This document shows positions 21,913 through 37,300 of a stretch of DNA of 59,995 bases, in pieces; within the stretch, counting starts at the first letter, position 1, and each line of letters opens with the position of its first letter. Position numbers and translations under genes: made by a program. This DNA is from Jiangella asiatica (lineage in GTDB: Bacteria; Actinomycetota; Actinomycetes; Jiangellales; Jiangellaceae). The notes under the pieces are model-generated. The model was not told the origin of the DNA. It saw only the letters and a list, made by a program, of their open reading frames with translations, and made no database searches. The stretch covers positions 1 through 59,995 of the forward strand of contig NZ_SMKZ01000042.1 in NCBI RefSeq assembly GCF_004349065.1, written 5' to 3'.

Positions 21913-22014
21913 GACCTGGAAATGATCACGTTCAGCACGAGATCTCGTGTCACACCGCGCTCGCAATCATGGTGAGGCTCGGGGGATCCTGCTGAACGTG
22001 ATCATTTCGAGGTC
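21913..22014 (+). repeat. Cloverleaf-like palindromic repeat, copy A1 (full)
   Basis: Outer arms 21913-21937 and 21990-22014 pair over 25 bp with one mismatch; the core is GAAATGATCACGTTCAGCA. Inside are a self-complementary CACGAGATCTCGTG (21936-21949) and a weak second hairpin ending CATGGTG. It lies 36 bp after the dnaJ stop. The gap 21878-22308 otherwise holds only two copies of CCCGCCGCCGCCCGC (about 21881-21910) and the partial copy A2. Confidence 0.85.
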
Positions 22015-22098
22015 CCGGTGTGAAATTGGTGCAATTGAGCAGGCGGTGGGGGACAGCGATGCCACACCCGGTGCCCCCACGGATGCAGCAGGAGTGCC

Positions 22099-22160
22099 CG
22101 GAATGATCACGTTCAGCGCGAGATCTCGTGGTGCATTATGCCTGCGAGCCCCACGAGGGT
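22099..22160 (+). repeat. Degraded partial copy A2 of the cloverleaf repeat
   Basis: It has GGAATGATCACGTTCAGC followed by GCGAGATCTCGTGG and a diverged GTGCATTATGCCTGCGAGCC, which aligns with the first 60% of the full repeat. The closing outer arm is absent. It lies in the same orientation as A1, 85 bp further on, and upstream of rsmE. Confidence 0.7.
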
Positions 22161-22308
22161 CGGGCGGGACTGGTGATGAGACGGGAGCCCGAGGCCTCCT
22201 CTCATCGCCGGTGGATGAGGCAGCTGTGGATGACATTGGCCGGAACCTGTCCGACTCGACGACACTGGTGACTCGTGACGCGCGAGAAGTCTTGGTGATG
22301 GGCCGTCC

Positions 22309-23046
22309 ATGAGTGCTCCGGTGTTCATCGCCGACGGCGACGCGCTGCGGGCGTCGGACGAGGTGCTGCTCGGCGGGGACGAGGGCCGGCATGCCGCCGT
22401 CGTCCGCCGCATCACCGTCGGCGAGACCGTCGAGCTCACCGACGGGGCGGGGCACCTGGCCCGCTGCGTCGTCGTCGGCGCCTCCAAGCAGGGCATCACC
22501 TGCGCGGTGCACGAGCGGGTCGACGTGCCGGAGCCGCGGCCGCGCGTCGTCGTCGCCCAGGCCGTCCCCAAGGGCGACCGCGGCGAGACAGCCGTCGAGA
22601 CCCTCACCGAGGTCGGCGTCGACGAGATCCTGCCCTGGTCGGCGCAGCGCTGCATGGTCCGCTGGAGCGGCGAGCGCGGCGACAAGGCGCTGCGGCGGTG
22701 GCGGTCGACGGCGCGCGAGGCGGCCAAGCAGGCGCGGCGGGCGTGGTTGCCGTCGATCGGCGGGCTGACGACCACCTCCGTGCTGGCCGCACGCGCCCGC
22801 GCCGCCGCGCTGGCGGTGGTCCTGCACGAGGAGGCGCCGGGGCCGCTGGCGTCCGTCGAGGCTCCCTACGACGGCGACATCTTGCTGGTGGTGGGTCCGG
22901 AAGGCGGGGTCGCGCCGGAGGAGATCGCGGCGCTGGAGGCCGCCGGCGCCGTGACTGCCCGGATGGGGCCGACCGTGCTGCGCACCTCCACCGCCGGGAC
23001 GGTCGCCGCCGGCATTCTGCTGGCCCGCACCCGTCGCTGGGCTTGA
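22309..23046 (+). CDS. rsmE: 16S rRNA m3U1498 methyltransferase
   Basis: A 245-residue SPOUT-class enzyme that methylates U1498 of 16S rRNA with S-adenosylmethionine. An N-terminal PUA-like RNA-binding domain is followed by the methyltransferase domain. The latter contains VVVAQAVPKGDRGE, REAAKQARRAWLP (family ExxxQxxR-like), VVGPEGGVAPEEI, and the SAM-binding knot MGPTVLRTSTAG. Its position after dnaJ is the actinobacterial norm, but here a 430-bp repeat-containing gap separates them, so it probably has its own promoter. It converges with the GerMN-domain gene, 7 bp apart. Confidence 0.93.
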   Translation: MSAPVFIADGDALRASDEVLLGGDEGRHAAVVRRITVGETVELTDGAGHLARCVVVGASKQGITCAVHERVDVPEPRPRVVVAQAVPKGDRGETAVETLTEVGVDEILPWSAQRCMVRWSGERGDKALRRWRSTAREAAKQARRAWLPSIGGLTTTSVLAARARAAALAVVLHEEAPGPLASVEAPYDGDILLVVGPEGGVAPEEIAALEAAGAVTARMGPTVLRTSTAGTVAAGILLARTRRWA

Positions 23047-23053
23047 CCACGGG

Positions 23054-35284: not shown

Positions 35285-35332
35285 GTGCGGCGCTTCAGCC
35301 TCCTGCTTAGCTGCCGCGGTGGGGTCCGCTAG
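35285..35332 (+). CDS. Leucine-rich leader peptide of leuA
   Basis: A 15-codon frame, GTG to TAG, reading [15 protein letters not shown], ends 71 bp upstream of leuA. Three consecutive leucine codons (CTC CTG CTT) include CTT, an uncommon codon in this genome. Ribosome stalling there during leucine shortage would alter folding of the downstream RNA, the classic attenuation layout for amino-acid operons. There is no ribosome-binding site, but a -10-like TACAGT is placed for leaderless translation. Confidence 0.75.
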
Positions 35333-35392
35333 ACCGGCTCCCTCATCGCGGTGAGTTCGCGCTGCCGGTCGCGCTTGCCCGACCACCCGCAG
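35332..35392 (+). promoter_or_regulatory. Attenuator-like alternative hairpins before leuA
   Basis: Stem 1 pairs GACCGGC (35332-35338) with GCCGGTC (35364-35370). Stem 2 pairs CTGC and GGTCG (35362-35371) with CGACC and GCAG (35380-35392). The two share GGTC, so only one can form at a time. Stem 2 ends at the AGGAG ribosome-binding site of leuA, so it could also limit translation. Confidence 0.5.
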
Positions 35393-35403
35393 GAGCCCTC
35401 GCA

Positions 35404-37158
35404 ATGACCCACTCTGACACCGCGCCGTCCTGGCCGCCGGCGCAACAAGCCTCGACGCTGCCCGTCCACCGGTACCGGCCCTTCCACGAGCAGATCGCCG
35501 TCGACCTGCCCGACCGCACCTGGCCAACCAAGCGGGTCCAAGCCGCGCCGCAATGGTGCGCCGTCGACCTGCGTGACGGCAACCAGGCGCTCATCGACCC
35601 GATGAACGCCGAGCGCAAGATGCGCATGTTCAAGCTCCTGGTCGCCATGGGTTACAAGGAGATCGAGGTCGGGTTCCCGGCCGCGAGCCAGACCGACTTC
35701 GACTTCGTCCGGCAGCTCATCGAGGGCGACCACATCCCCGACGGCGTCGTCATCCAGGTGCTGACCCAGTGCCGCGACCAGCTCATCGAGCGGACGTTCC
35801 AGTCACTCGTCGGTGCCCGCCAGGCCATCGTCCACCTGTACAACTCGACGTCCATCCTGCAGCGCCGCGTGGTGTTCGGGCTGGACCGCGACGGGATCAC
35901 CGACATCGCCACCACCGGCGCGCGCACCGCGCAGAAGTACGCCGAGTCGATCACCCCGGGCACCGAGATCTACTGGGAGTACTCCCCGGAGTCCTACACC
36001 GGCACCGAGCTGGAGTACGCCGCGGAGATCTGCGGCGCCGTCGCCGATGTGCTCGAACCGACGCCGGACCGGAAGATGATCGTCAACCTGCCGGCGACGG
36101 TGGAGATGGCGACGCCGAACGTGTACGCCGACTCCATCGAGTGGATGCACCGCAACCTGCCGCACCGGGAATCGATGATCCTCTCCCTGCACCCGCACAA
36201 CGACCGCGGGACGGCGGTCGCCGCGGCCGAGCTGGGGCTGCTGGCCGGCGCCGACCGCGTGGAGGGCTGCCTGTTCGGCAACGGCGAGCGCACCGGCAAC
36301 GTCTGCCTGGTCACGTTGGGCATGAACCTGTTCACCCAAGGCATCGACCCGCGGATCGACTTCGGCGACATCGACGAGATCCGCCGCACGGTCGAGTACT
36401 GCAACCAGCTGCCGGTCCCCGAGCGGCACCCGTGGGGCGGCGACCTGGTCTACACGGCGTTCTCCGGCAGCCACCAGGACGCCATCAAGAAGGGCTTCGA
36501 GGCGCTCGAGCGCGACGCCAAGGAGGCCGGAGCCGCCATCGAGGACCACACCTGGGAGGTCCCGTACCTGCCGGTCGACCCCAAGGACGTCGGCCGCACG
36601 TACGAGGCGGTCATCCGGGTGAACTCCCAGTCCGGCAAGGGCGGCGTCGCCTACATCATGAAGAGCGAGCATCAGCTCGACCTGCCGCGCCGGCTCCAGA
36701 TCGAGTTCTCCGGCGTCGTCCAAGGGCTCACCGACGGCGAGGGCGGCGAGGTCGAGCCGGAGCGGATGGGGCAGGTCTTCCGTGCGGAGTACCTCGACCG
36801 GCAGAAGCCCCTGGCGCTGAACTCGGTGCACACGTCGTCGGCCGCGGGGGAGCGGGACGCCCTCGAGGTCGCCGTCTACGTCGACGGCGCCCGGAAGGTG
36901 CTCACCGGCACCGGCGACGGGCCGATCGACGCGTTCATCGACGCCCTGTCCGGCATCGGCTACGACGTCCGCGTCCTCGACTACGCCGAACACGCACTCA
37001 GCTCCGGCGCCGACGCCAAGGCCGCGGCGTACCTCGAATGCACGGTCGGCGGCGACGTGTACTGGGGCGTCGGCATCGACGCGAACATCGTCACCGCGTC
37101 GCTCAAGGCGATCGTGAGCGCGGTGAACCGCGCCGCGGCCGCGTCGTCCTCGGCCTGA
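35404..37158 (+). CDS. leuA: 2-isopropylmalate synthase (LeuA type 2)
   Basis: A 584-residue enzyme that condenses acetyl-CoA with 2-ketoisovalerate, the first committed step of leucine synthesis. The TIM-barrel catalytic domain has [20 protein letters not shown] (metal-binding DLRDGNQ), [20 protein letters not shown] (HxH metal ligands) and [19 protein letters not shown]. The C-terminal LeuA dimer/regulatory domain (from about residue 440) provides leucine feedback inhibition. Length and sequence fit the high-GC/fungal-like type. ATG 35404 follows GCAGGAG. An upstream leader peptide and hairpins suggest attenuation. Confidence 0.96.
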
Positions 37159-37210
37159 CGGCGGCGACGGTCTGGCGAGAACGGCCCGACGACCGGCGCG
37201 AGCTGGCATC

Positions 37211-37300
37211 GAAATGATCACGTTCGGCACGAGATCTCGTGTCGCACCATGCTCGCAAGCCTCGTGATGCACGGGTGATCCTGCTGAACGTGATCATTCC
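37211..37300 (+). repeat. Cloverleaf-like palindromic repeat, copy A4 (full)
   Basis: Left arm GAAATGATCACGTTCGGCA (37211-37229) and right arm TGCTGAACGTGATCATTCC (37282-37300) pair with two mismatches; CACGAGATCTCGTG lies just inside. The second inner hairpin (CACCATGCTCGCAAGC...) is diverged. It lies 52 bp after the leuA stop, in leuA orientation. The rest of the 289-bp gap to the carboxypeptidase gene presumably holds that gene's promoter. Confidence 0.85.

Follow-up and report, generated by a model that had tools for sequence, protein, structure and literature searches.

Dispersed palindromes of Jiangella asiatica and a putative nuclease that may spread them

Palindromes in the window

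There are a number of palindromes in the gaps between genes of a 59,995-nt stretch of the Jiangella asiatica genome (NZ_SMKZ01000042.1, positions 1-59,995; genome size 7.03 Mb), which is called the window here. One family of these, family 1, is the subject of this report, together with a gene for a putative nuclease that lies off the window between two family 1 units. Genomes, contigs and loci carry our own numbers with G, C and L. Jiangella asiatica is G000 and the contig of the window is C71.

Three family 1 doublets were found. Copy 1 (21913-22014, + strand) lies in the gap between dnaJ and rsmE, copy 2 (24840-24935, - strand and thus in opposite orientation) between a LytR-family gene and the gene that follows it, and copy 3 (37211-37300, + strand) between leuA and dacB. 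The doublet consists of two outer half-sites (GAAATGATCACGTTCAGC...) that are inverted, with their outer ends facing outward, and of an inner part that is common to both. These are the places that a sequence-only reading of the window had proposed, with the second copy re-bounded from 24843-24932. Two single units were also identified. One is diverged (22101-22178, + strand, nhmmer E 1.2e-11) and is a partner in the inverted pair I1. The other is degenerate and probably older (24765-24840, - strand, nhmmer E 9.6e-10).

Copy 1 matches copy 2 at 94% in inverted orientation across the whole of about 90 bp, so the similarity covers the entire unit, as had been claimed. The folding energies of copies 1, 2 and 3 each beat all 200 shuffles (z -5.5, -8.3 and -4.2, respectively). 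Other structural details held for some copies only. An outer stem of 19-25 bp had been described; folded as DNA, copies 1 and 2 have 19 bp of paired outer arm and copy 3 has 17 bp. The two inner hairpins assigned to every copy vary: CACCATG...CATGGTG is perfect only in copy 2 and CACGAGATCTCGTG only in copies 1 and 3. As for the proposed three-way junction, copy 2 has a branched minimum-free-energy fold, whereas copies 1 and 3 form a long stem interrupted by inner loops. Thus, "cloverleaf" is an apt term for one copy in three.

Family 1 in the genome

The half-site TGATCACGTTCAGCA, with up to one mismatch, was found 152 times on the forward and 146 times on the reverse strand of the genome. 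The reversed pattern, used as a control, was found 0 times on either strand. This confirms a true dispersed repeat. The window copies are not the only ones, and similarity is not lost beyond their stems. At least 40 full copies are present (40 of 224 candidates were scored, all at 94-100% identity). The first 100 half-sites listed are all exact matches and include 30 neighbour pairs within 300 bp. All 30 are inverted with their outer ends outward, and 25 of them share a single spacing of 67 bp. One pair, 301 bp apart, is arranged differently, and 33 sites stand alone, the nearest other site being more than 1.5 kb away.

The half-sites form the outer ends of a unit of about 78 bp. A model of this single unit matched 17 places, five of them in the window, in a 460-kb sample made up of the window and twenty 20-kb stretches (strand pairs merged by hand), and none in the reversed sequence. 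Family 1 occurs as single units, as inverted pairs about 200-280 bp apart, as fused 90-bp doublets, and as palindromes of about 40 bp made of two ends. Inverted pairs 0.6-1.2 kb apart also exist, two of which (L039 and L040) enclose other small genes. As hairpins, the single Jiangella units were unremarkable in three of the four that were folded (24, 127 and 22 of 200 shuffles were as good for L065, L059 and L061). The single unit typical of G003, a close relative, folds well (0 of 200 shuffles as good).

The setting of 30 copies was explored with simple home-made gene calls. Of the 25 that could be classified, 14 lie between convergent genes, 10 between tandem genes, and one between divergent genes; any overlap with a called gene is at most 20 bp. 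The corresponding counts for 161 background gaps longer than 100 bp are 22, 96 and 43. Many doublets (for example at L004, L007 and L008) are accompanied, about 15-35 bp further out, by a motif resembling CCCACGGA-GCAGCAGA or its reverse complement. Since this side motif recurs outside the doublets, the mobile unit may exceed 90 bp in some copies.

The nuclease gene between the units

It had been stated that no transposase is nearby. The searches agree with this for the contig, as five matches to two nuclease queries (four to one and one to the other) all lie off C71, but a nuclease gene with the same flanking units is present elsewhere in the genome. This gene (G000:C35:123099-124097) encodes 334 amino acids and is enclosed by an inverted family 1 pair at G000:C35:123006/124208. 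Predicted models match an AbiEi-like domain fused to a nuclease of the Vsr/I-Bth0305I type. The N-terminal part is predicted to have the AbiEi-type winged-helix/antitoxin fold; the Pfam family AbiEi_4 was found in nine of nine members, and PADLOC AbiEi models also match. The nuclease part has the predicted fold and the catalytic acidic residues of the Vsr/DUF559-like PD-(D/E)XK nucleases, and D253, E221, E288 and R291 are conserved in 80 of the 80 loci named. A sequence search of solved structures returned nothing useful, and neither did NCBIfam.

Orthologues are present in seven other Jiangella genomes (59-73% identity) and in Phytoactinopolyspora (56%). In all eight Jiangella genomes with a close orthologue, including Jiangella asiatica, the gene lies between two inverted units with their ends outward (up to two mismatches allowed in the flanking half-sites). 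The Phytoactinopolyspora orthologue also has a flanking inverted pair. In seven of the nine genomes the gene occupies one locus beside the same neighbours (in G006 only one side was seen), which we take to be MshC-like and PAC2-like. These neighbours were not found beside the gene in G008 or Phytoactinopolyspora. At this locus, the cassette is inverted in G001 and G003 (L061 and L064) relative to G011 and G007 (L062 and L065), which have their nearest nuclease relatives; these appear to be two independent flips. Matches to the nuclease were found in four plasmid records, all from Tsukamurella, at about 30-35% identity. In viral contigs there were 19 pattern matches, none of which is a relative.

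The window sites in relatives

The three doublets occupy sites that have no unit in most congeners. Between dnaJ and rsmE, 10 of 11 congeners have no unit and essentially no gap (by eye). The gap between leuA and dacB is 289 bp in Jiangella asiatica; in 10 of 11 congeners it has no unit and measures 50-76 bp. The gap after the LytR-family gene is 348 bp, and in 10 of 11 congeners it is again free of units and measures about 88-182 bp. Together with the roughly 300 half-sites and the inverted doublets, this supports the earlier suggestion of a REP-like (repetitive extragenic palindromic) or non-autonomous mobile element. G003, the nearest relative by dnaJ, has remnants, a different palindrome family, or one unit of its own type at these sites. 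The inner end of the degenerate unit at 24765-24840 joins the following sequence much like the G003-type unit does at the equivalent G003 site (by eye). The leuA-dacB gap of G003 (L267, about 299-530) holds a further palindrome family (GTCACCTGATCG...), which was compared with four loci of nuclease paralogues in G003 and matched none.

In 30 copies, no excess of target-site duplications was found adjoining the stem (265 of 300 shuffles equalled or exceeded the observed value). Direct repeats within 40 bp of the stem are in slight excess in these copies (3 of 500 shuffles), and the longest derive from the side motif described above. One possible 4-bp duplication, CCGT, was seen at a G003 site. 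Insertion into palindromes that existed beforehand was considered and rejected, as outward complementarity was like that of shuffled sequence (495 of 2000).

The 90-mer of Jiangella asiatica, with 15 candidates scored per genome, has 18-23 matches in each of G001, G002, G006 and G011, five in G003, two in G008, and none in G007. G015 and G018 also hold matches to the unit.

Pairing of nucleases and palindromes

Over eight genomes, the identity of the unit tracks that of the nuclease (rho 0.89, Mantel p 0.00025). It does not track the identity of dnaJ (rho 0.24, p 0.13). In G003, where 40 of 228 candidates were scored, the G003 unit has 52 matches, and the best copy other than itself reaches 105 bits. 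A further 58 matches, weaker and with a best of 74 bits, lie in G007 (40 of 99 candidates scored), the genome whose nuclease is most like that of G003. The unit has 21 matches in G005, 16 in G006, three in Jiangella asiatica, two each in G001 and G011, one in G010, and none in five genomes.

The stronger evidence for pairing comes from a second nuclease clade and its palindromes, family 3. This clade is represented by 22 loci in 11 of 13 genomes. At all nine A-type loci, which are 68-100% identical to the query, the only cores are GATCTTGGAG, and at all 13 B-type loci (42-48% identity) the only cores are GATCATGGAG (Fisher p 2e-6). Both types coexist in five genomes. The half-sites are 55-56 bp apart in the A-type and 43-45 bp in the B-type. 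With flanks of 600 bp, the inverted-repeat score exceeds 41 in 18 of the 19 loci that have both flanks.

Because units of families 1, 2 and 3 were all found there, the window holds three palindrome families. The A-type palindromes of family 3, whose GATCTTGGAG core flanks A-type nucleases in other Jiangella, are at 16448-16522 (GTTGATCTTGGAGC...) and 46671-46756, both on the + strand. Both were recognized by core match and sequence, and the second also by the inverted repeat I4; the nhmmer matches to them are so by construction. Family 2 (ATGATCATCAACG...) is represented at 15488-15544 (no strand assigned; nhmmer E 6.3e-5; inverted repeat I7) and was found at five places, including a weak one, in the 460-kb sample. 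A paralogue of the nuclease in Jiangella asiatica (G000:C134:98516-99442) is flanked by family 2 palindromes.

Association across Actinobacteria

A scan of contigs gave at least 592 pattern matches, of which at least 467 are relatives. Analysis continued with the best 80, of which 78 had flanks that could be used. For these, an inverted-repeat score was computed between the 400 bp to the left and the 400 bp to the right of the gene. It was above the largest of 385 control windows from the same loci in 45 of the 78, and above their 95% point in 57. At the 28 loci shown, the flanking repeats differ in sequence between genera.

Two flanking palindromes from other genera are dispersed as well, chiefly within their own genomes. 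That of Nocardioides TF02-7 matches its own genome 86 times, counting both strands, which corresponds to about 45 places. Another two Nocardioides have 12 and two matches, and seven further genomes have none. The first Tomitella unit has 22 matches (about 12 places), all of them in its own genome among seven searched. In 43 copies of the Nocardioides counterpart, compensatory change did not go beyond that of shuffles (the paired fraction of cells was 88.5%, which all 500 shuffles equalled or exceeded). Where the stem varies, changes in one arm are independent of those in the other, so the arms resemble two copies of a putative protein-binding site more than a helix maintained for its structure. 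The Nocardioides palindrome also occurs in tandem arrays of the same orientation with a period of about 143 bp, at L231 (G060:C1:2535615-2536139) and L234 (4002669-4003050). In many copies (alignment A3) its loop reads GGTGGGTACGCC, and several have the precise reverse complement, GGCGTACCCACC, as though the inner hairpin had been turned around.

A possible mechanism and its alternatives

The repeats are probably non-autonomous members of an enzyme-palindrome system, in which the putative nuclease spreads the doublets. This view builds on the association of gene and unit, its clade specificity, the dispersal, the occupation of sites that have no unit in relatives, and the fold predicted for the protein. 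The AbiEi-type N-terminal part could read the half-site, and the Vsr-type nuclease could nick or cut at paired inverted half-sites. Host repair or single-strand events would then copy the doublet to new intergenic sites. Such copying would be similar to the action proposed for RAYTs (REP-associated tyrosine transposases) on REPINs, with a different chemistry. Enzyme and units would evolve together, and every nuclease lineage would keep its own palindrome family.

Several observations weigh against this view. The nuclease gene itself moves rarely, since it is at one locus in seven of nine genomes. Its orthologues in G002 and G008 each have one in-frame TGA, and G005 (260 contigs) has units while no close nuclease was found in it. 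Linkage would by itself produce some of the correlation between unit and nuclease, with the dispersed copies as the independent part, and the G003 unit is as frequent in G007 as in G003 with 40 candidates scored in each. A 4-bp duplication at any fixed boundary occurs in at most two of 30 copies. Jiangella asiatica has A-type palindromes of family 3, yet the sole family 3 nuclease found there at E <= 1e-20 (C92:21360-22103) is of the B-type; those in the window are either orphan repeats, or their enzyme has been lost or missed. Across the Actinobacteria, 33 of the 78 homologous loci are not above the largest control. Distant paralogues mostly have no flanking repeats (five of 20 score above 41, and four of 15 with 600-bp flanks), although partial matches could misplace the gene ends there. 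The second Tomitella unit is weak, with seven matches at about four places, two of which are the flanks of the gene.

Another possibility, which we consider unlikely, is that the protein is an AbiEi-type DNA-binding regulator and the palindromes are its operators, either of a regulon or as chromosome-organising sites, with the flanking pair serving autoregulation. The AbiEi-like N-terminal part is consistent with this, as are the Nocardioides arms, which are conserved as sequence and not as pairing. However, promoter regions are avoided (the single divergent copy among 25, against 43 of 161 background gaps) and the window sites have no unit in 10 of 11 congeners. The conserved residues of the nuclease part and the copies on both sides of its gene do not fit a regulator either.

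It is less likely still that another transposase, for example a RAYT, spreads the palindromes and that the nuclease gene is cargo or a passenger between two of them. Other genes are indeed found between inverted units (L039 and L040). Y1_Tnp is absent from the Pfam matches of the nine members, and separate RAYT genes of Jiangella asiatica were not searched for. Yet the palindrome core follows the nuclease clade in 22 of 22 loci, even within one genome, and in other genera nucleases of this kind are likewise associated with palindromes, which are unrelated to these. Being cargo predicts neither of these, so this view is disfavoured.

A role in genome marking or defence appears very unlikely. 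The palindromes would mark self DNA or act as decoys, and the nuclease would attack DNA that lacks them or that arrives with them. Vsr-like nucleases are often found in restriction loci, and the PADLOC matches also agree with this idea. However, a single gene lies between the units in Jiangella asiatica, so that a methylase or toxin partner could not be accommodated. The viral matches include no relative, and copy numbers vary greatly among relatives.

Structured RNA, terminators or mRNA 3' ends, the first of which had been offered as an explanation, fit the strong hairpins and the position of 24 of 25 copies after the 3' end of at least one gene, but are highly improbable given that the window has no Rfam match at gathering thresholds, the 43 Nocardioides copies have no covariation, no long T run follows the stem (by eye), and the nuclease gene has units on both sides.

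Comparison with known systems

The spreading of palindromes by their nuclease would resemble the REP/REPIN-RAYT systems (PMC3116915, PMC8266576). In both cases there are many intergenic palindromes with inverted doublets as the main close arrangement, the enzyme gene is beside its own type of repeat, and some genomes have more than one enzyme-repeat pair. Unlike the RAYTs, which are HUH Y1 transposases of the IS200/IS605 type, the enzyme here is an unrelated fusion of an AbiEi part and a Vsr-type nuclease. The units are also longer than REPs, at about 50-100 bp. Neither GTAG nor CTAC, the only tetranucleotide searched for, was found within 8 nt outside the stem in any of 30 copies.

Miniature inverted-repeat transposable elements (MITEs) are likewise short, non-autonomous and intergenic, with inverted ends and with sites in relatives that lack the element. 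They differ in that the gene-bearing element here carries, by model, a Vsr-type nuclease with no DDE transposase seen, and in that no target-site duplication was seen at a fixed boundary. Unlike the Vsr-like homing endonucleases (I-Bth0305I, EDxHD), this nuclease is fused to an AbiEi-type part, and its likely target is its own repeats, up to hundreds of copies, rather than an intron-less site. The AbiE type IV toxin-antitoxin systems are bicistronic (PMC3985639). Here, a single gene with an extra nuclease domain lies between the units in Jiangella asiatica and is tied to dispersed palindromes, and the two-gene operon with AbiEii was not found.

These results point to a previously undescribed type of self-spreading DNA in actinobacteria. 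On balance, we lean towards the wider view that many actinobacterial proteins annotated as "AbiEi antitoxin" or DUF559 are mobilising nucleases, each with its own palindrome family. They would form a second, independently evolved REP-like class with a Vsr active site, for which neither an HUH nor a DDE transposase is needed. No link of AbiEi or DUF559 proteins to dispersed palindromes appeared in the literature searched, whose scope leaves out preprints and most subscription papers, so novelty is unproven. REP-like repeats have so far been the territory of RAYT transposases. If the wider view is true, the partnership of enzyme and palindrome evolved more than once, a widespread protein family named after antitoxins would have a function, and scattered palindromes in many Actinobacteria would be explained. 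The clean A/B code, CTTGGAG versus CATGGAG, makes the recognition rule directly testable.

Another inverted repeat in the window

The window also has an inverted repeat of 27 bp at 34422-34522, which is outside the families defined here. Its arms are 93% complementary and enclose a 47-bp loop.

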